Of a DNA stretch of 33,592 bases, positions 11,496 to 32,328 are shown piece by piece; position 1 is the first letter of the stretch; the number at the start of each line of letters is the position of its first letter. The position numbers were made by a program, and so were the translations under genes. Under the pieces are notes generated by a model that searched no databases, was not told where the DNA came from, and saw only the letters and a program-made list of their open reading frames with translations. The stretch lies in IMG/VR virus record IMGVR_UViG_3300035670_009241, positions 1 through 33,592 of that record; one strand, given 5' to 3'. The stretch is from a virus.

Positions 11496-11763
11496 ATGGA
11501 AAGATGAGGCAACATGTCTTGATTATGATACAAATTTATTTTTTGATAAGTATGAAGAAGATGAACCTTTAAGAAATGCCATAGATAAACTTTGCCTAGA
11601 GTGTCCAGTATCAAAAACATGTTTTGCTGTTGGAGTATCAAGCAAAGAATACGGTGTTTGGGGTGGCATATATTTAGAATCTGGAAACATATCAAAAGAA
11701 TTCAATAACCATAAAACAAAAGAATTTTGGTCTTTGATTTGGAAAAAGATGTCATTTGAATAA
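11482..11763 (+). CDS. WhiB-like Fe-S transcription factor
   Basis: A 93-aa protein with the four WhiB cysteines C12, C38, C41 and C47 (LCLECPVSKTC) and the turn GVWGG at 58-62, which together bind a [4Fe-4S] cluster and contact the vegetative sigma factor in characterised members. The family is restricted to actinobacteria and their phages, so this gene is strong evidence for the host group. Start ATG 11482 is tentative; an in-frame TTG at 11476 sits better relative to AGAAAGG at 11462-11468. The C-terminal tail is short. It may control phage or host promoters. Confidence 0.9.
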   Translation: MHKLKWKDEATCLDYDTNLFFDKYEEDEPLRNAIDKLCLECPVSKTCFAVGVSSKEYGVWGGIYLESGNISKEFNNHKTKEFWSLIWKKMSFE

Positions 11764-17987: not shown

Positions 17988-17991
17988 TCAG

Positions 17992-18063
17992 AGCCTCCTG
18001 TAGGATTTGAACCTACGACAACCCGCTTACAAGGCGGGTACTCTACCCCTGAGTTAAGGAGGC
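17992..18063 (-). tRNA. tRNA-Thr (anticodon TGT)
   Basis: A cloverleaf with acceptor GCCTCCT/AGGAGGC, anticodon stem CCCGC/GCGGG with loop CTTGTAA, and T arm GTAGG-TTCAAAT-CCTAC. It reads ACA. No CCA is encoded. It is placed between katG and the sulfotransferase gene. Confidence 0.95.
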
Positions 18064-18073
18064 AACCCCTTAA

Positions 18074-20113
18074 TTACTTGACATCAAACCTATCAAGCAT
18101 CATAACTTTATCCCATGTCTTAGCAAAATCAAATAAGAACTTATCATTTGCATCATCTGCAGCATATACCTCTGCTATTGCACGAAGTTCTGAATTTGAT
18201 GCAATAATAAGATCTACACGAGGAACATCTTGTGCCTGATCAGCACTAATATAAGATAATAACTCAACTAAATAAGTGTTATCTATTTTGTTATTTGATA
18301 GCATTCTAAATCCAGACAACAAAACTACCAACTCAGATGTGGTTATGTTAAGCATGTTTGCTTTTTCAATTAACAACACCTCTTCTGGAGCGCCAGCCCC
18401 ATCTTTTAGGTAGTTTCTAAAGCCATCGGCGATAGGTTCAAGAACCTTAAATGATTCAACATCAGTCTGCTCTTGAGTTGCATCGCCACGACCAGGAGTA
18501 AACGGAACTTTAATCTTTTCGCCAGAGGCTTTTTCAATTGCTGCACATCCAGCAAGAACAATTAGATCTGCAAGAGAAACCATATGCTCTTTTTGAATTT
18601 GCTCTAAAAAGGAAATAGTGTCAGAAATTATTTCATGGTCATTTGCTTCCCATGTATTCTGTGGCTGTAGTCTAATTCTTGCTCCATTTGCACCACCACG
18701 CTTGTCTGTGTTGCGGAAGGTAGAAGCAGAAGCCCATGCTGTATATACAAAATAATACATAGGAATATCAGAAGACTTTATTCTATTCTTAATACTATCT
18801 ACATCAATATCTTTTGTAATTGATACAGGGACTGGATCTTGCCAAATTAATTCCTCTGAAGGAACTTCTTTACCAAGATACCTTGCAGTTGGACCCATAT
18901 CTCTATGTGTCAACTTAAACCAAGCACGAGCAAATTGATCAGAGAAATAATCAAAGTCTTCAAGGAATCGTCTTGAAATCTTTTCATATTCTGGGTCAAA
19001 CTTGAGCGCTAAGTCTGCAGTTGTCATAACTGGAGCATGGAACTTACCATCAATATGTGCGTCTGGAACTAAGTCAGCAGCAGATTCATCTGTAGGAATC
19101 CATTGTGTCGCACCTGCTGGGGACTTTACTTGCTTCCAATCATACTTAAATAATAATGTTAAATATGTATTGTCCCATCTTGTTGGGGTTGGTGTCCAAG
19201 CACCTTCAATGCCACTTGTAATGGTATCTTCCGCATTACCCTTCCCAAATGAATTTTTCCATCCAAAACCCATTTGTTCAATAGGTGCAGCCTCTGGCTC
19301 TGGTCCAACATTAGATGGATCTCCAGCACCATGTGCCTTACCAAAAGCATGTCCACCTGCAATAAGTGCAACGGTCTCTTCATCATTCATCGCCATACGA
19401 GCAAAAGTTTCACGAATATCACGAGCAGATAGAAGCGGATCTGGATTGCCATTTGGTCCTTCAGGGTTTACATAAATTAGCCCCATCTGAACTGCAGCAA
19501 GGGGATTTTCTAACTCCCTGTCACCACTATAGCGATTGTCTGCAAGCCATTCCTTTTCGCTACCCCAATAAGTATTATCTGCCTCATATACATCTTCACG
19601 ACCTCCACCAAAACCAAAAGTCTTAAGGCCCATATTTTCTAAAGCAACATTACCAGCAAGAATCATGAGGTCTGCCCATGAAATCTTCTTTCCATATTTC
19701 TTCTTGATAGGCCAAAGAAGTCTTCGAGCCTTATCTAAATTACCATTATCTGGCCATGAATTTTGTGGAGCAAATCTATGTAGGCCTTCTCCTGCACCAC
19801 CACGACCATCGGTTGTTCTGTACGTACCTGCGCTATGCCAAGCCATACGAATGAATAGTGGGCCATAGTTACCGTAATCAGCAGGCCACCAGTCTTGCGA
19901 GGTAGTCATAACTTCCTCAATATCAGCCTTAAGACTATCAAGATCTAAACTGTTAAACTCTTTGGCATAATCAAAATCATGATCCATCGGGTTTGACAAA
20001 GATGAGTTTTTTCTTAATGGAGAAAAGTCTAATTGGTTTGGCCACCAATCTTTGTTATATGTTCCTTCGTTTGTTAGGCTATTACCCATAAATGGGCATT
20101 TTTTTTCTGACAT
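18074..20113 (-). CDS. katG: Catalase-peroxidase KatG
   Basis: A 679-aa bifunctional haem catalase-peroxidase that would destroy hydrogen peroxide in the cytoplasm. All key residues are present: distal R89, W92 and H93 (RMAWHSAG), proximal H255 ([12 protein letters not shown]), W306, D367 and the switch arginine R404 (THRDMGP). The W92-Y214-M240 set corresponds to the Trp-Tyr-Met adduct needed for catalase activity. It is about 50-60 residues shorter than typical KatG (726-740 aa), with about 15 missing at the N-terminus and most of the rest in the C-terminal domain between FRML and RVDLI. Base composition is higher in G+C than in flanking genes. Its location between tRNA genes suggests acquisition as an accessory metabolic gene. 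Confidence 0.97.
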
Positions 20114-20142
20114 TATATTTTCTTTCTACTAGTAGTTATTCT

Positions 20143-20148
20143 ATTATA
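20143..20148 (-). promoter_or_regulatory. Extended -10 promoter of katG
   Basis: On the minus strand TGGTATAAT gives an extended -10, 29 nt before ATG 20113. A purine-rich site (AGAAAGAAAA) follows. No -35 match is seen; transcripts may also run in from the tRNA genes. Confidence 0.5.
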
Positions 20149-20156
20149 CCAAATAG

Positions 20157-20228
20157 TAGCACTAACGGGAATCGAACCCGTCTTTCCGCCGTGAAAGGGC
20201 GATGTCCTAACCGATAGACGATAGTGCC
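20157..20228 (-). tRNA. tRNA-Glu (anticodon TTC)
   Basis: Acceptor GGCACTA/TAGTGCT (first pair G-U), anticodon stem TCGCC/GGCGG with loop CTTTCAC, T loop TTCGATT. It reads GAA. CCA is not encoded. First of a tight trio of tRNA genes with 4-nt gaps. Confidence 0.95.
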
Positions 20229-20232
20229 TTGG

Positions 20233-20306
20233 CGATCCGTATCGGACTTGAACCGACGACCTCTACCGTGACAGGGTAGCGTTCTAACCAACTGAACTAA
20301 CGGACC
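20233..20306 (-). tRNA. tRNA-Asp (anticodon GTC)
   Basis: Acceptor GGTCCGT/ACGGATC (one G-U), anticodon stem CTACC/GGTAG with loop CTGTCAC, T loop TTCAAGT, and discriminator G as usual for Asp. It reads GAC and GAT. Confidence 0.95.
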
Positions 20307-20310
20307 TTGG

Positions 20311-20383
20311 CTGGTCTGGCAGGTCTCGATCCTGCGACATCTCGATTAACAGTCGAGTGTTCTACCAACTGAACTACAGACCA
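20311..20383 (-). tRNA. tRNA-Asn (anticodon GTT)
   Basis: Acceptor TGGTCTG/CAGACCA, anticodon stem CTCGA/TCGAG with loop CTGTTAA, and discriminator G. It reads AAC and AAT, which are very frequent in the AT-rich enzyme genes of this window. Confidence 0.95.
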
Positions 20384-20396
20384 ATAAATTAAATTA

Positions 20397-21416
20397 TTAA
20401 AGATTTACAAAAAAATCCGCAAGATGAAATTGAAAATGAATTCCTGGATGAGAAGCCCAATTAGGCCTTTCTTCATCATTAATTATAACATAGTCTGATC
20501 CAATTGTCCAACAATGATTGCTATTCAAGTTTGAACCATGATCAGAATTACATAAACTAGTATCAAAGGACGCATTTCCATTTAAATAATTTTTCCCAGA
20601 CTCAGTAATAAATTTTTTATATTTTTTTAATTTAAAATTAGGAACTTCTAATAGTTTATCTATTAAAAACGCACTTGCTGGATCCCATGTTGTCCAACAT
20701 AATTCAATATTATTTGTTGAACAAAATGATTCTAGTATATAAATTGCATTAATAGAGTTTAATATCAATTGATGTGGTGATAAAAGACTTTCTACATGCC
20801 TTTCTTTTAGATCTGGAATTTCACCATACATCTTTTTTTCATCATAATTAAAATAAATGGCTGGATTTGCTGATGTAAGATTTAGTCTATAGTTTTCATG
20901 ACGATCTCTTACCCATTTTTTAGAAGAATAAAATTCAAAATCTTCAATCATCAAACTTCTAAATAAATCAGGAAATACGCAAAAAATCTTTTTAGGCATT
21001 TTATAATTTGTTGCATATGAAATTAAAATATTACATATTCCTTCAATAGAATATCCTGGCAATCCAAAATTATTGATTTTTTGATTAGTTTTTTCACCTA
21101 AAATATCTGTCCATCTTCCCTCTTCTGGAACACCTACACCAAAGGTAAAAGAGCATCCAGCACCAATAATTTCAGATTCAGGATTAAACTTACCACGCAT
21201 TCCAAATTCATTAATATAATAATCATTATAATCATCTAACGTTTTTACCTTGCTCATTTTATTACGAAGTGACATTCCAAAAGGATTTTCTTGAAATGGC
21301 TCAAATGGACCGAATTGATCGGTGTTAGTAAAGTTTTTTAATAAGTAAAAATTATTATTTTCATTATTTTCATAAAAATCTAATATGTTTTTGCTTATAT
21401 TGCTTATCTTATTCAT
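20397..21416 (-). CDS. SGNH/GDSL-like protein (second copy)
   Basis: A 339-aa protein with GAGCSFTFGVGVPEE (block I-like), NFGLPGYS (block II-like), IFCVFPDLFRS and a C-terminal SHPGIHFQFHLADFF in the place of block V. The order and spacing match the protein encoded at 1499-2545 (GCSHTYGMGMPEE, NLGQPGAS, IIFPNIER, GSHRHEHIAE), so the two are paralogues or two members of one phage family. The catalytic Asp/His pair is less certain here. A TAAAAT box 7 nt before ATG 21416 and no Shine-Dalgarno sequence suggest near-leaderless expression. Confidence 0.65.
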   Translation of the reverse strand: MNKISNISKNILDFYENNENNNFYLLKNFTNTDQFGPFEPFQENPFGMSLRNKMSKVKTLDDYNDYYINEFGMRGKFNPESEIIGAGCSFTFGVGVPEEGRWTDILGEKTNQKINNFGLPGYSIEGICNILISYATNYKMPKKIFCVFPDLFRSLMIEDFEFYSSKKWVRDRHENYRLNLTSANPAIYFNYDEKKMYGEIPDLKERHVESLLSPHQLILNSINAIYILESFCSTNNIELCWTTWDPASAFLIDKLLEVPNFKLKKYKKFITESGKNYLNGNASFDTSLCNSDHGSNLNSNHCWTIGSDYVIINDEERPNWASHPGIHFQFHLADFFVNL

Positions 21417-21436
21417 AGTATCTATTTTACCACAAG

Positions 21437-21509
21437 TACCCTCGATTGGATTTGAACCAACGACAAACGGATTAGAAGTCCGCTACTCTATCCCCTGAGT
21501 TACGAGGGT
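21437..21509 (-). tRNA. tRNA-Arg (anticodon TCT)
   Basis: Acceptor ACCCTCG/CGAGGGT, anticodon stem GCGGA/TCCGT (one G-T pair) with loop CTTCTAA, T loop TTCAAAT. It reads AGA, the commonest Arg codon in the AT-rich genes here. Confidence 0.95.
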
Positions 21510-21512
21510 ATA

Positions 21513-21716
21513 TTACTTTCTACCCCACTGAATATTATTCCAGCCACGCTCATGGAAATAATATAAAATAGTTTTTGTTATAACTTCTAAACTTGCAATT
21601 GCTCCAGCAGTTACTGGTTCTTTTGTTATTAACCAAGATAGCAGAAATGTATCTATAGTTCCTATAACTCTCCATGTAATTGCCTTGGCAGCAGATCTAC
21701 TCTTCGTTACTCTCAT
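21513..21716 (-). CDS. DUF2061 membrane protein (second)
   Basis: A 67-aa protein with the DUF2061 features: basic N-terminus (MRVTKSRSAAKAITWRVIG), helix DTFLLSWLIT, helix TAGAIASLEVITKTILYYF and the hallmark FHERGWN. It is shorter than and diverged from the copy at 16469-16687. It lies between tRNA-Arg and the kinase-nucleotidyltransferase gene and is probably cotranscribed with the latter. Function unknown. Confidence 0.85.
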   Translation of the reverse strand: MRVTKSRSAAKAITWRVIGTIDTFLLSWLITKEPVTAGAIASLEVITKTILYYFHERGWNNIQWGRK

Positions 21717-21816
21717 CTATTTTTTCTTGAAGGTTAATAAATAGTTCTGTTTCTTTATCTGCCCATGAATTACTTGAATTATCAAATACCCATCTCTTTA
21801 CGTTTTTCAGTAGCAC
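21697..21816 (-). CDS. Possible 39-aa acidic micro-protein
   Basis: A minus-strand frame from GTG 21816 to TAG 21697 gives a peptide containing RWVFDNSSNSWADKETELF and ending DESNEE. It bridges the 65-nt gap between the kinase gene and the DUF2061 gene, overlapping both. The composition looks protein-like, but there is no ATG and no ribosome-binding site, so this is a weak call. Confidence 0.25.
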   Translation of the reverse strand: MLLKNVKRWVFDNSSNSWADKETELFINLQEKIDESNEE

Positions 21817-22537
21817 TAATAGATTCAATTTCTTCTCCTAACTTTATCTCTTCAATTTTATAACCGACATCTCTGCCATAAACAACATTAGTAATGTTTG
21901 GTAACCTAAGTATCAAAGTATCATTTTCATATTCATTTTTTTCTATAATTCTTTTAACTTGATCAAACTTAAAAGGATCTTTTGCAGAAGTTGCATAAGT
22001 ATTTCTAACACCTATGATAACCTGATTAGTTCTTTTATGTGCCTCTTCTTTTAGAGCATTGTGTCCATCATGCCAAGGTTGATATCTGCCAAGCATTAAG
22101 GTTGAAGGTGCTGTCCAATCAAATAGTTGTGCATGGCCAATAATATTTTGTACCTCTTGTTCAATTGTCATACCTTCTGTTATTCTTATATCAAAATTTT
22201 CGGGATACTCCCAAATCTTATTTGTATTTTCATATCTACTTTCAGATATTCTATCTACCCAAACAATTAGATCTGCATCACCAAAAGCATCTCTGGTCTG
22301 CTCAGTAGGACAAACAAAATCTACAATAACATCAAATCCTTGTTTTGATATTAGTCTAGACATCTCACCCATTCGTCTTGCTTGCTCAATTCTATCTTCA
22401 TTAGTAAAACTTAAATCAGAATTTATTGTAGCCCTAACCTCATCAGCATTTAAATGTACGGCATTAATCTTTTCTTTAAGTGCCTGTGCAAGTGTTGTTT
22501 TGCCAGAACCAGGCAGTCCAATAATTTGTATAATCAT
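21782..22537 (-). CDS. APS kinase-like / nucleotidyltransferase fusion
   Basis: A 251-aa two-domain protein. Residues 1 to about 140 resemble adenylylsulfate kinase: P-loop GLPGSGKTT (7-15), LNADEVR (29-35) and IVDFVCPTEQTRDAF (71-85). Residues 146-251 are a HIGH-type nucleotidyltransferase: LGRYQPWHDGH (149-159) and ISATEKR (240-246), close to NadM or cytidylyltransferases. APS kinase forms PAPS, the donor for the two sulfotransferases in the window. The C-terminal domain is too small to be a classical ATP sulfurylase, so its product is uncertain. GGAGG precedes ATG 22537. Confidence 0.8.
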   Translation of the reverse strand: MIIQIIGLPGSGKTTLAQALKEKINAVHLNADEVRATINSDLSFTNEDRIEQARRMGEMSRLISKQGFDVIVDFVCPTEQTRDAFGDADLIVWVDRISESRYENTNKIWEYPENFDIRITEGMTIEQEVQNIIGHAQLFDWTAPSTLMLGRYQPWHDGHNALKEEAHKRTNQVIIGVRNTYATSAKDPFKFDQVKRIIEKNEYENDTLILRLPNITNVVYGRDVGYKIEEIKLGEEIESISATEKRKEMGI

Positions 22538-22565
22538 TTATTCCTCCATAATAAGTATACCACTG

Positions 22566-22638
22566 TGCCCCTGGTTGGATTCGAACCAACGCTGTCACGA
22601 TTTTAAGTCGTGTGCCTCTACCACTGGGCTACAAGGGC
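22566..22638 (-). tRNA. tRNA-Leu (anticodon TAA) with short variable arm
   Basis: Acceptor GCCCTTG/CAGGGGC, anticodon stem CACGA/TCGTG with loop CTTAAAA, T arm GTTGG-TTCGAAT-CCAAC, discriminator A. It reads TTA. Bacterial Leu tRNAs normally have a long variable arm; here it is only about 5 nt. Confidence 0.85.
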
Positions 22639-22642
22639 TTTG

Positions 22643-22716
22643 TACATCTGGAAGGACTCGAACCTTCGGCTCTCTGCATATAAGGCAGGTACTCTAACCA
22701 ACTGAGTTACAGATGT
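22643..22716 (-). tRNA. tRNA-Ile (anticodon TAT)
   Basis: Acceptor ACATCTG/CAGATGT and T arm GAAGG-TTCGAGT-CCTTC. The anticodon stem CCTGC/GCAGA has one C-A mismatch and loop CTTATAT. It would read ATA directly, instead of through a lysidine-modified CAT anticodon. Confidence 0.85.
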
Positions 22717-22719
22717 ATA

Positions 22720-22982
22720 AACCTAACTTTATTATGCGTCCCAGTTAGGCTTGGGTATGTCTAGAACATAAGTAGTATGATCGGCACAATGTGCTACAGG
22801 GACTGCTCTACGCAATTTTTATATACCAGCCACGAAGTCCGTTTTTACGGAAGAATCAACTGCTGGCTCTGCATCCTAGATAGAGATGATCTTGGACTGT
22901 TTCGACACAGTTTACCATTAATCACTACCAACGTAGTTTCGGTGCAGTTGTACTTAACCTAAGTCGAATCTGGTTAAGCCTT
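22720..22982. ncRNA. Structured non-coding segment inside the tRNA cluster
   Basis: No credible gene fills these 263 nt, but seven simple hairpins tile them. Paired arms are 22722-22728/22743-22749 (7 bp), 22756-22760/22766-22770, 22784-22787/22791-22794, 22826-22830/22862-22866 enclosing 22838-22842/22847-22851, 22896-22900/22907-22911, 22924-22928/22933-22937, and 22953-22959/22972-22978 (7 bp). The flanking tRNAs are on the minus strand, so an RNA on that strand is likely, but the strand is not fixed by the hairpins. I do not recognise a known RNA class. Confidence 0.5.
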
Positions 22983-22983
22983 G

Positions 22984-23057
22984 TAGAGCAGGTAGGACTC
23001 GAACCTACGATAACCGAATTATGAGTTCGGGGCCTTAACCAACTTGGCTACTGCTCC
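22984..23057 (-). tRNA. tRNA with CAT anticodon (elongator Met, or Ile2)
   Basis: Acceptor GGAGCAG/CTGCTCT (first pair G-U), anticodon stem CCGAA/TTCGG with loop CTCATAA, T loop TTCGAGT. The paired position 1-72 argues against initiator Met. A lysidine-type Ile2 cannot be excluded. Confidence 0.92.
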
Positions 23058-27125: not shown

Positions 27126-27157
27126 GGCTCCTCCATTATACGGGTATTTTGCAACGG

Positions 27158-27163
27158 TATAAT
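27158..27163 (+). promoter_or_regulatory. -10 box of a leaderless promoter
   Basis: TATAAT followed by exactly 6 nt precedes ATG 27170. GAGG lies too close to the ATG (2 nt) to act as a ribosome-binding site. Confidence 0.55.
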
Positions 27164-27169
27164 GAGGCC

Positions 27170-27490
27170 ATGGACCCTACTATCCTATACATAGTATATC
27201 ACCCAAACCATAATGCCATAAAGGTAGGTATAGGGGATATTACTGGAAAAAGGTTTAAAGCCCATAAGACCAAGGGATGGGAATTGGTAGCCTATTGGTA
27301 TTTTCAAGATCGGCGGGATGCCAGAAGAGTCGAATCTATAGTAGTACAAACCCTAACAGAGAGATATGGACATTATCTGGATAAGGGGGATATGCCATAT
27401 GGGGGATATACGGAGACATTTAATGCCAAGAAAATAACCAAGAGAAGGTTAATTGGTTTGGTCAATAGGGCTATAAAGGGTGCTTCGTAA
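27170..27490 (+). CDS. GIY-YIG-like nuclease domain protein (T5orf172/MUG113 type)
   Basis: A 106-aa protein opening MDPTILYIVYHPNHNAIKVGIG, in which LYIV and KVGI stand for the two strands of the GIY-YIG core. GWELVAYWYFQDRRDARRVESIVVQTL supplies the arginine-rich helix and the conserved glutamate. It is the only plus-strand gene after 17407, and it sits next to the repeat-rich region, which suggests an independent mobile insertion. The stop lies in TCGTAA, the first copy of a word repeated downstream. Confidence 0.7.
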   Translation: MDPTILYIVYHPNHNAIKVGIGDITGKRFKAHKTKGWELVAYWYFQDRRDARRVESIVVQTLTERYGHYLDKGDMPYGGYTETFNAKKITKRRLIGLVNRAIKGAS

Positions 27491-27528
27491 TCCTTTTATA
27501 CCCGCTTTTAGATACCCTGGTTTGATGT

Positions 27529-27738
27529 TTATGCACAGACATTGAGACCTTTGATGATACAGGCTTCTACACCATCTCCGTATCTATGTTCAAACATTTT
27601 ACCTACACTCCATAGTTGATCATCTTCTACTATGAGATATTGGTTGATTGAGTCTGGATTTGTATCCCCTGCTATTCTTCCAATATGGTAGGTTTTGATG
27701 AGTTTGTCATTGATATAGATTGGGATATGTATAGGCAT
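27529..27738 (-). CDS. 69-aa hypothetical beta-rich protein
   Basis: A small soluble protein beginning MPIHIPIYINDKLIKTYHIGRIAG and ending ACIIKGLNVCA, with a central WSVGKMFEHRYGDG. It predicts mostly beta strands. A consensus promoter (TTGACA, 17 bp, TATACT) ends 6 nt before ATG 27738, so the mRNA would be leaderless. Similar short proteins occur in actinophages, from memory only. Function unknown. Confidence 0.65.
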   Translation of the reverse strand: MPIHIPIYINDKLIKTYHIGRIAGDTNPDSINQYLIVEDDQLWSVGKMFEHRYGDGVEACIIKGLNVCA

Positions 27739-27744
27739 GGTTTA

Positions 27745-27773
27745 AGTATATATCAGGATAGGTGGTTTGTCAA
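27745..27773 (-). promoter_or_regulatory. Consensus leaderless promoter
   Basis: On the minus strand TTGACA (27773-27768), a 17-bp spacer and TATACT (27750-27745) are followed by 6 nt and ATG 27738. The -35 runs into AACCA, the same context as the promoter at 27974-28002. Confidence 0.8.
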
Positions 27774-27779
27774 TAGAAG

Positions 27780-27788
27780 TTATCCACA
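27780..27788 (+). other. Perfect DnaA-box sequence
   Basis: TTATCCACA is the classical DnaA-box consensus. It stands alone beside the consensus promoter and at the left edge of the repeat-rich region. I found no second perfect copy nearby. Confidence 0.5.
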
Positions 27789-27922
27789 GATATATCTTAC
27801 TGATATTATTTTTAGATAGGGTTAAAGTGGAGTGAAGTGGAGGATAGTGGAGTATGGAGCGCTTTTTAAGGCGGGGATCGTAATGTCAAACCATCAAACC
27901 ATATATCCCAAACCATTGTATC

Positions 27923-27952
27923 CTTATACCATATATGCCCCATATCTGTCAA
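27923..27952 (-). promoter_or_regulatory. Possible promoter in the repeat array
   Basis: On the minus strand TTGACA (27952-27947) and TATAAG (27928-27923) are separated by 18 bp. The -35 overlaps an ATGGTTTGACA word, so a protein bound to the repeat would touch RNA polymerase. Confidence 0.5.
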
Positions 27953-27973
27953 ACCATGTATAAAAGGTTTGGC

Positions 27974-28002
27974 ATTATACATTCAAAACCATGGTTTGTC
28001 AA
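27974..28002 (-). promoter_or_regulatory. Perfect sigma70-type promoter in the repeat array
   Basis: On the minus strand TTGACA (28002-27997), 17 bp and TATAAT (27979-27974). The palindrome AAACCATGGTTT lies inside the spacer. No gene starts within 200 nt downstream, so it may drive a small RNA or a long leader. Confidence 0.7.
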
Positions 28003-28132
28003 GTATCTTCGTAATCTATTTTGAATGAAAAATTGCCAAAAGTCTGGGAAAATTCTGATAATTTCGTAATATGTTTTATTATGCCAGAAAATGTTTTAAA
28101 ATGTTTGAAAACCAGGAAACAATGGTTTGTTA

Positions 28133-28351
28133 TTACTTATATAGGTGTTTATGTGTACCTATAGATTGTTTGGGTTTCTCTTCAGATCCCGCCCGCTTTT
28201 CGGCGGGCAAAACGGCGGGGGAAAATGAAAAGAACTTACCCAAACCTATAAGATGAGTAATAGATACAAAGGCATTATGCATATTATCGCTAAAGGTTTG
28301 ATATCCTTTTGGATCATTTGCTCTATAGTTTGAAAAGTGTCTTGGACTCAT
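28133..28351 (-). CDS. Possible 72-aa protein within the repeat region
   Basis: The frame begins MSPRHFSNYRANDPKGYQTF and continues SDNMHNAFVSITHLIGLGKFF before a Lys/Glu-rich tail. TACAAT exactly 6 nt before ATG 28351 fits the leaderless pattern. The C-terminal third runs through the GC-rich hairpin at 28191-28208, so the natural end is uncertain. The N-terminal half looks like a real protein; no family is recognised. Confidence 0.45.
   Translation of the reverse strand: MSPRHFSNYRANDPKGYQTFSDNMHNAFVSITHLIGLGKFFSFSPAVLPAEKRAGSEEKPKQSIGTHKHLYK
28191..28208. repeat. GC-rich hairpin in an AT-rich region
   Basis: GCCCGC (28191-28196) and GCGGGC (28203-28208) pair around a TTTTCG loop, and further G-runs follow at 28214-28220. 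No T-run follows on either strand, so a simple terminator is unlikely. Confidence 0.5.
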
Positions 28352-28644
28352 ATATTAATTGTAACACTCTTTATACCGCCCAAACTTTCAGCGATTTTTT
28401 GGATGGCGTTCGTAATGTCTTTTTATCCTGTGTTTTGCGCTGGGCGCCCCAAATTTGGCGGGGGATAAAAAGATATCGTAATACTACCTATACAAGTATA
28501 CATAGATACAATGGTTTGACAAACAAAATATATTATGGTAGATGGTTTGGGAAAAATATGGTTTGATCGTAATCTGGGAAAAATGGTTTGGTATCGTAAT
28601 GGTTTGTATACCCAAAAAGATAGGTCGGCGCTTTTCAGCGCAGC
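28352..28644. other. Gene-free part of the repeat region
   Basis: About 290 nt without a supported gene. It holds the right-hand cluster of TCGTAAT and ATGGTTTG words, a TTGACA (28516-28521) with a weak TAGATG 17 bp on, and a GC-rich patch (28438-28465). Plus-strand frames here are broken by these repeats. Confidence 0.6.
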
Positions 28645-28911
28645 CTATGAATTGTCAAGCAATTCGTTAAGGCTTGTGAAACCAGCATCAGGAAGTCCCA
28701 ATGATTCTAAAAATAAATCCCATGTTTCATTTACATATTTTGTAGCCATGTCAGAAGCAGGAATAATTTCTTGCGAGATAGCAAACGCTAATGGCAAACC
28801 AATATCATTGTATTCAATAAAATCTTCAAACTCAGGTTCGCTTTTATAATTTAGCCACAAGTCCCCCAAGATACTACATCTGCTAGAAAAGTCTGTATTG
28901 GTATTGCTCAT
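28645..28911 (-). CDS. 88-aa hypothetical acidic protein
   Basis: The protein begins MSNTNTDFSSRCSILGDLWL and is acidic and helical (YKSEPEFEDFIEYNDIGLPLAFAI, VNETWDLFLESLGLPD). AGGAGAAA precedes ATG 28911. The start lies 29 nt inside the end of the upstream gene, so the two are coupled. It resembles small immunity- or chaperone-sized actinobacterial proteins but no family is recognised. Confidence 0.7.
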   Translation of the reverse strand: MSNTNTDFSSRCSILGDLWLNYKSEPEFEDFIEYNDIGLPLAFAISQEIIPASDMATKYVNETWDLFLESLGLPDAGFTSLNELLDNS

Positions 28912-29095
28912 TGTATTTCTCCTCTTTGTGGTGTTGTGCGCTCTCTGCGATAGTGATGAGTCTGTTGTAGGAAACTGTTGGTGCGATTACTGCTAAATAC
29001 TCGCCCACTTGCTCAATGTCAAGGCGAAGGTCAGATACGATAGCGGAAATACGCATGGCAACCTTTTCCTCGTCAGTTAGTTTATGTTTTCTCAT
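28883..29095 (-). CDS. 70-aa hypothetical helical protein
   Basis: The protein begins MRKHKLTDEEKVAMRISAIV and continues with SDLRLDIEQVGEYLAVIAPTVSYNRL in two parts, predicting three helices in a small bundle that could bind nucleic acid or protein. AAGGAG lies 6 nt before ATG 29095. A promoter with TTGCGC, 17 bp and TACAAT precedes it. Function unknown. Confidence 0.7.
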   Translation of the reverse strand: MRKHKLTDEEKVAMRISAIVSDLRLDIEQVGEYLAVIAPTVSYNRLITIAESAQHHKEEKYNEQYQYRLF

Positions 29096-31320: not shown

Positions 31321-32328
31321 TTAAACTAATTCTAAAGTGTTGCGAACAACATTTAGCAAACGATTTTTTTCTGCTGTGATAGCAGGGTCAAAACCACTTG
31401 AACCCATTAGGATTGATTCAGTAAGACCACGCTTACCACCACGATACCAATCGATTCTTTCTGTGAGTGCATTCCAAGCACCCCAAGCAGTATTGGCAAT
31501 CATGCCATTAAACTCACCTGTGTAAATATCATTGATTAAATCAACTTTATTTGTCCACTTAGAAAGTGCGCCTTTCTTAGTTTCATCAGGCTTAGGATAC
31601 GCAGCCAAAACAATATCATTGAATTGTTGCGCTGTGATTTCTTTTTCAATCATGAGTTGCGCCATGATAGAAAATTCGTCCATGTAAGCATTAGCAACAG
31701 CAAGAGCCTCACGAGCCTGTTGAACTTTACCCTCAGCAGATTGTGTGTGACGAATCTTGAATGATTGCTTAACGCCATTTGATTTCTTAGTTCGACCAAG
31801 AGCAACAGCGAGAGTGTTAGCGCATACAACACGAACAGGTGTCACGCTTGCTTGAATAGCAACAGAACCATCGTGTGATGTATTAACAAGAAGATAAGTT
31901 TTAACCTTATCCGCTACACCATTAGGGTCAAGAACAGTCTCACGCTCAAGAGCAAGAGAACCGAAAACAACACGACCACTACGCAATGAGCCAGCAGTCT
32001 CCCAACGACCTCCACCATCAAGAATTGCATCACCAAAAGTGAATAGTTCTTCATTTTGTAGTGGGACATAGCGTTCACCAACAACGCCTAAGACATCAAC
32101 TTGATTTGCGGTGAATGGATTATCACGCACAACATATTGATAAGATTTATCAGATGTAAGAGTAGATGGGATTTCTACATCTTCAAGACGAACATTCCAA
32201 CCATCGAGGTTAGCGAGTTCCAACATTTTTTCAGTATTAACTTCCTCCTGAAAAACAGTTCCTAAACCATGCCAAGCAGGTTCACGGAATGAAGCGAAAG
32301 AATTAGCAGATTCTAATTCATGAGCCAT
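31321..32328 (-). CDS. DUF932 phage/plasmid-like protein
   Basis: A 335-aa protein with the DUF932 features: FREPAWHGLGT near the N-terminus, DGWNVRLEDVEIP, VVRDNPFTANQVDVLGVVGERYVPLQNEE (in parts), GGRWETAGSLRSGRVVFGSL, and VRVVCANTLAVAL. The family is found in plasmids and phages of many bacteria; a DNA-related or defence-related role is suspected, not shown. AAAGGAAA precedes ATG 32328, with its own promoter. Its base composition is richer in G+C than the enzyme genes to the left. Confidence 0.92.
   Translation of the reverse strand: MAHELESANSFASFREPAWHGLGTVFQEEVNTEKMLELANLDGWNVRLEDVEIPSTLTSDKSYQYVVRDNPFTANQVDVLGVVGERYVPLQNEELFTFGDAILDGGGRWETAGSLRSGRVVFGSLALERETVLDPNGVADKVKTYLLVNTSHDGSVAIQASVTPVRVVCANTLAVALGRTKKSNGVKQSFKIRHTQSAEGKVQQAREALAVANAYMDEFSIMAQLMIEKEITAQQFNDIVLAAYPKPDETKKGALSKWTNKVDLINDIYTGEFNGMIANTAWGAWNALTERIDWYRGGKRGLTESILMGSSGFDPAITAEKNRLLNVVRNTLELV

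Follow-up and report, generated by a model that had tools for sequence, protein, structure and literature searches.

An array of short repeated words in a freshwater phage of actinobacteria could, with what we judge to be about even chances, represent a genome-end locus in a lytic actinophage resembling the Stanwilliamsviridae: if cultured Streptomyces phages are a guide, it would lie at the junction between unique DNA and a terminal repeat and would act as a start of replication and/or packaging. The array is carried by a 33.6-kb linear virus record (33,592 nucleotides, analysed in full and hereafter called the window) from an uncultured phage of ~100-123 kb. The homology and anatomy of the locus are read directly from the comparisons described below; its function is what we infer. 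More tentatively, this large group of lytic actinophages may have built the operator of the host regulator MraZ, together with DnaA boxes, into a replication/packaging start at its genome end, thereby coupling to, or taking over, the division and replication programme of the host.

The array combines two words, TCGTAAT and CAAACCAT (Table 1). A sequence-only reading of the window had drawn attention to eight copies of the former and eleven of the latter, and both counts hold: the TCGTAAT words (27485-28600) all lie on the plus strand, and CAAACCAT occurs between 27887 and 28606 as four plus-strand copies followed by seven on the minus strand. Over the whole window there are 13 copies of TCGTAAT (mean 3.4 and maximum 8 in shuffled sequences) and 14 of CAAACCAT (mean 1.7, maximum 5), and the array itself, with 7 same-strand TCGTAA per 1.1 kb and 16 CAAACC, exceeds the respective maxima of 3 and 6 obtained in second-order Markov shuffles. 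Elsewhere the words are not equally dense, which rules out an even spread across the genome. The proposed flip in the orientation of CAAACCAT was recovered with a switch point at ~27975, and the mirror symmetry associated with it is real and conserved around a promoter, P1. Other details required amendment: the word at 27762 reads GTGGTTTG rather than ATGGTTTG, and the region, described as 0.9 kb of intergenic DNA, is 1.1 kb long and not wholly intergenic, because a 69-aa gene and a small ORF lie inside it; its core is non-coding. The TCGTAAT at 27485 may be fortuitous. Neither the DnaA box and MraZ operator at 27780-27852 nor the genome-end position seen in cultured kin had figured in that reading.

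Table 1. Features of the array and its surroundings (positions in the window).
Feature	Position	Strand	Remarks
GIY-YIG endonuclease gene	27149..27490	+	points into array; PHROG match; same place in many relatives
TCGTAAT	27485..27491	+	contains stop codon of GIY-YIG gene
69-aa conserved protein gene	27529..27738	-	relatives 47-87% identical
Promoter-like P2	27745..27773	-	before 69-aa gene; starts with TTGACAAACC, as P1
DnaA box TTATCCACA	27780..27788	+	single exact copy in window
Invariant ATCTTACTGAT	27794..27804	+	heads AT-rich stretch; 79-sequence alignment
MraZ operator, AGTGGAG x3 (consensus site)	27826..27852	+	10-bp period; pattern scan
Putative zone of mature left genome end / terminal-repeat start	27845..27880	.	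by analogy with cultured Streptomyces phages
TCGTAAT	27878..27884	+	most conserved copy (word count, alignment)
CAAACCAT	27887, 27895, 27909, 27950 (27887..27957)	+	
Promoter P1, TTGACAAACC .. TATAATGCC	27974..28002	-	leftward; 17-nt spacer holding CCATGG palindrome
CAAACCAT	27991, 28122, 28511, 28542, 28558, 28583, 28599 (27991..28606)	-	
TCGTAAT	28009, 28064 (28009..28070)	+	
72-aa ORF inside array	28133..28351	-	start partly conserved
TCGTAAT	28410, 28476, 28567, 28594 (28410..28600)	+	
Promoter-like P3, TTGTCAAACC .. TATACT	28495..28522	-	counterparts in relatives G001, G009, G010
88-aa conserved protein gene	28645..28911	-	3' end meets array
70-aa conserved protein gene	28883..29095	-	helical-hairpin model
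DUF932 protein gene	31321..32328	-	syntenic marker common to Stanwilliamsviridae terminal repeat

Relatives were fetched via three neighbouring genes, yielding contigs of up to 123 kb; counts over these related sequences are not independent of one another. At the same site, most of them display ~4-10 same-strand TCGTAA words together with CAAACC words of flipping orientation, which disposes of the possibility that the words are absent from this site in relatives. Both words reach their highest density at the array in most of the large genomes retrieved. G009 has its densest TCGTAA window elsewhere, no comparable peak occurs in the sister genomes G005 and G006, and the distant relatives L014, L015 and L022 keep TCGTAA and have no CAAACC. 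Actinomycetia phage DSL-LC01, the closest record by RNR, possesses neither such an array nor TTATCCACA, and a blastn search of the region against named phages returned nothing of use. A WhiB-family regulator is encoded by all 15 genomes tested (the window, at 11497-11670 on the plus strand, and 14 related genomes), which suggests that the host is an actinobacterium. In the relative G001 there are genes for a DnaE-type polymerase, a DnaB-type helicase, a DnaG-type primase, a terminase, a portal, a protease and a ribonucleotide reductase, arranged in the order of Streptomyces phage Paradiddles; the DUF932 protein is at best 54% identical to its Stanwilliamsviridae counterpart. Among the neighbours of the array, which converge on it in many relatives, no initiator gene was recognised. 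The model of the 88-aa protein (helical bundle, pLDDT 92) had no PDB match at E <= 0.001 in a fold search, and the 70-aa and 88-aa neighbours were rejected as word-binding proteins, their models being a helical hairpin and a helical bundle, respectively.

Alignment of 79 relatives revealed a conserved core in the order DnaA box(es), ATCTTACTGAT, three AGTGGAG repeats, the first TCGTAAT, TGTCAAACC and P1, beyond which TCGTAAT words continue on the same strand. TGTCAAACC is the conserved form of TGTCAAACCAT, within which the CAAACCAT copy at 27950 is located. The DnaA box consensus is TTATCCACA (PMC10201434). Most relatives carry two or three boxes, 11-12 bp apart, that is, the tandem arrangement of a B. 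subtilis-type oriC; the window has one exact box, and some relatives have no exact box beside the operator. An unwinding element of the B. subtilis type would show a run of DnaA-trios (3'-GAT-5') beside the boxes; reading the sequence by eye against the consensus in PMC10201434 gave no clear run. Further tandem pairs of DnaA boxes, 11-12 bp apart, are found several kb from the array in four genomes (G001:77267-77287, G003:76384-76404, G007:118491-118511, G002:33651-33670).

The transcription factor MraZ, very widely conserved among bacteria, has an unclear role beyond its own operon. Judged by its sequence, the AGTGGAG triplet is identified as a consensus site, an operator of this host regulator, consisting as it does of at least three (A)GTGG(A/G) direct repeats with a 10-bp period. 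A scan of 84,980 prokaryote genomes for the pattern AGTGGAGTRAAGTGGAGGNNAGTGG gave 18 matches, 17 of them just upstream of mraZ (the gene was located by tblastn in 16 cases and by reading the translation in the seventeenth, L150). The eighteenth match is a contig in a metagenome bin, L154, that belongs to a phage of the same family as the window; this contig (CANGYR010000020.1) was binned as Chitinophagaceae and is probably mis-binned. A related pattern is present in at least 119 viral loci in IMG/VR. Among the matches listed, CGTAA occurs within 100 bp downstream of the operator in 116 of 119 loci (two of the three exceptions run off the end of the locus and the third has one substitution), at least two DnaA-type boxes lie within 110 bp upstream of it in 107 of 119, and mraZ stands beside it in none. 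An mraZ gene was not found in 14 phage genomes either. Like the bacterial mraZ operator of the division and cell-wall cluster, the phage copy is built of AGTGGAG-type direct repeats with a 10-bp period, but it is flanked by DnaA boxes and TCGTAA words and, because no mraZ adjoins it, is an operator-like site in an unusual setting. In a sister group (L038, L040, L044 and L047) the retained operator is accompanied by TCGTAAA words, and three of the four also have DnaA-type boxes, placed further downstream; the module thus persists there in a different layout. A literature search on MraZ and phage found no title describing MraZ operators in phages; retention of the operator in at least 119 phage contigs without mraZ offers an independent handle on the role of MraZ.

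The perfect promoter anticipated by the sequence-only reading corresponds to P1, TTGACA and TATAAT separated by 17 nt on the minus strand (28002-27974). Its -35 box, TTGACAAACC, is overlapped by a CAAACC word, its -10 box is TATAATGCC, and it carries the expected 12-bp palindrome, AAACCATGGTTT, at 27986-27997; the four overlaps or abutments of TTGACA with words (27768-27773, 27947-27952, 27997-28002 and 28516-28521) were also as described. P1 is among the most conserved parts of the array in the 79-relative alignment, being present in 71 of 79 and always with a 17-nt spacer, though 16-18 nt were allowed. Transcription from this sigma-70-type promoter runs leftward, across the MraZ operator and the DnaA boxes. 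Promoters fused to CAAACC are nearly confined to the array, ruling out a genome-wide regulon of such promoters. A structured RNA produced from P1 was rejected, as the consensus fold of the aligned leaders was empty (energy 0.0); an Rfam search returned tRNAs only.

The placement of the core at a genome end rests on its likeness to the region where the direct terminal repeat (~11 kb) begins in Stanwilliamsviridae of the Boydwoodruffvirinae (Paradiddles, Peebs, NootNoot, Mildred21 and Wofford). Paradiddles has a terminal repeat of 10,778 bp that opens with 877 bp of non-coding DNA, in which five TCGTAA stand, all on the plus strand, at 213-649. In nine cultured phages of this group, the initial ~700 bp of the repeat hold 4-6 TCGTAA, all on the same strand save one minus-strand copy in one phage, and a DnaA-box cluster is situated at -93 to -57, just outside the right-hand repeat copy, in all five phages with the junction read. 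The physical ends of BE1 phages have been mapped from read starts (PMC5764925). TCGTAA is found at +21/+22 in several mature ends and in the satellite MulchRoom, and some mature ends do not have the +21 word. In the Naboo assembly the array is inside the record, at ~50 kb, a layout that suggests how a collapsed repeat hides an end. In the more distant Annadreamy, a 1.5-kb non-coding region holds two TCGTAAA as well as DnaA-type boxes in tandem, at a distance of 12 bp. The presence of DnaA boxes by the repeat start of Streptomyces phages makes the start of long-terminal-repeat replication and the duplication of the ends directly testable.

The freshwater and Streptomyces phages share gene order, and in both a DnaA-box cluster lies on the left, TCGTAA words occupy one strand of non-coding DNA, and a minus-strand DUF932 gene stands on the right. 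Unlike the freshwater array, that of the Boydwoodruffvirinae has no MraZ operator and no CAAACC words, its word is mostly TCGTAAA, and its DnaA boxes are partly inverted, not tandem; an MraZ operator within the putative genome-end locus is confined to the freshwater family. Lsr2 is present in the Streptomyces repeats and absent from the freshwater phage, a difference in content that speaks against equating the two. The window matches the Streptomyces order of DnaA boxes, boundary and TCGTAA words; the terminal repeat itself belongs to the Streptomyces phages and is placed in the freshwater phage by analogy, with a boundary that would fall near 27845-27880. In the freshwater set, 32 contig ends fall in the 8 kb rightward of the operator versus 16.5 expected, and the 15 on the left show no enrichment, which is weakly compatible with a repeat extending rightwards.

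The array had also been proposed to be a multi-site control region or an iteron origin. In outline, the idea of a control region or origin is supported: the array has a non-coding core, is conserved and linked to a conserved promoter, and occurs essentially once in each genome. A strict iteron origin was discarded, given that the words are short and not long iterons, the TCGTAAT copies are irregularly spaced (27-393 bp apart) and no adjacent initiator gene is recognised. With bacterial oriC and iteron origins it shares DnaA boxes beside an AT-rich stretch and arrays of short words, and it differs from them in that the words are irregularly spaced and no initiator gene is recognised alongside. 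GC skew follows the coding strand, from which no origin signal could be told apart. A plasmid-prophage origin was rejected, neither ParA (PF13614) nor a tyrosine integrase being found in 11 genomes (serine integrases were outside the search).

If the array is indeed a genome-end start, host DnaA bound to the boxes would, with the AT-rich stretch, open the junction; DnaA recruitment is plausible because relatives encode DnaE, DnaB and DnaG homologues. A phage protein, which could be a replication initiator or a small terminase, would read the directional TCGTAA words and initiate replication and/or packaging in the rightward direction, into the repeat. P1 would be set by a second factor, bound to the CAAACC words that overlap its -35 box and flank it, and host MraZ, sitting on its operator, might report the division state of the host or be titrated by the replicating phage. 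Of the two roles, replication is favoured by the DnaA boxes, packaging by the unidirectional words within the end and by the lone word at +21/+22 of several mature ends.

In phage cosB and pac sites (lambda, P1), several short sites lie immediately within the left end of the packaged DNA; the array differs from them in being spread over 0.7 kb or more, with DnaA boxes outside the end. The cultured kin are like them in that the words of nine phages point one way across the opening ~700 bp of the repeat, and TCGTAA recurs at +21/+22, so the array might be a pure packaging signal, with the TCGTAA words as small-terminase sites inside the left end and the DnaA boxes and promoters unrelated. We regard this as rather unlikely: the +21 word is missing from some mature ends, and both families conserve DnaA boxes immediately beyond the end. 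Satellites encode terminases and no known replicase (PMC10690885). As a test of origin versus packaging they are not decisive, the array being absent from both satellites checked; nevertheless MulchRoom, which encodes its own terminase, carries only the single end word at +21, contrary to what a packaging signal would lead one to expect. MulchRoom and its helper MulchMansion have a similar mature end, TGGGGTAT..TTCGTAAG (L293:1-27, L295:1-28).

Alternatively, the array could serve transcription control only, as an operator array for P1 and P3 on which DnaA and MraZ act as repressors or roadblocks for leftward transcripts. The high conservation of P1, its course through the MraZ operator and DnaA boxes and the near-exclusive occurrence of CAAACC-fused promoters in the array all speak for such a role, but Streptomyces phages keep the DnaA boxes and TCGTAA, with no promoter equivalent to P1 seen in them, the neighbouring genes converge on the array in many relatives and the P1 leader has no structured RNA, making this explanation improbable. 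Very unlikely, in our estimation, is a decoy that titrates host MraZ and DnaA after phage replication: consensus-grade sites for two host regulators are kept by phages in which mraZ was not found, yet there are few sites per genome, and their fixed spacing to other elements would be needless for a decoy.

Other features of the window lie away from the array. A 679-aa protein with two peroxidase (PF00141) stretches (18074-20113, minus strand) is catalase-peroxidase-like, an unusual phage cargo that among 14 related genomes is found only in G008. Eight tRNA genes lie among metabolic genes at 17991-23057 on the minus strand. The same strand encodes a kinase with an APS-kinase-like N-terminus and a cytidylyltransferase-like C-terminus (21782-22537), as well as a tetrapyrrole-methylase-like protein (PF00590; 25682-26365).
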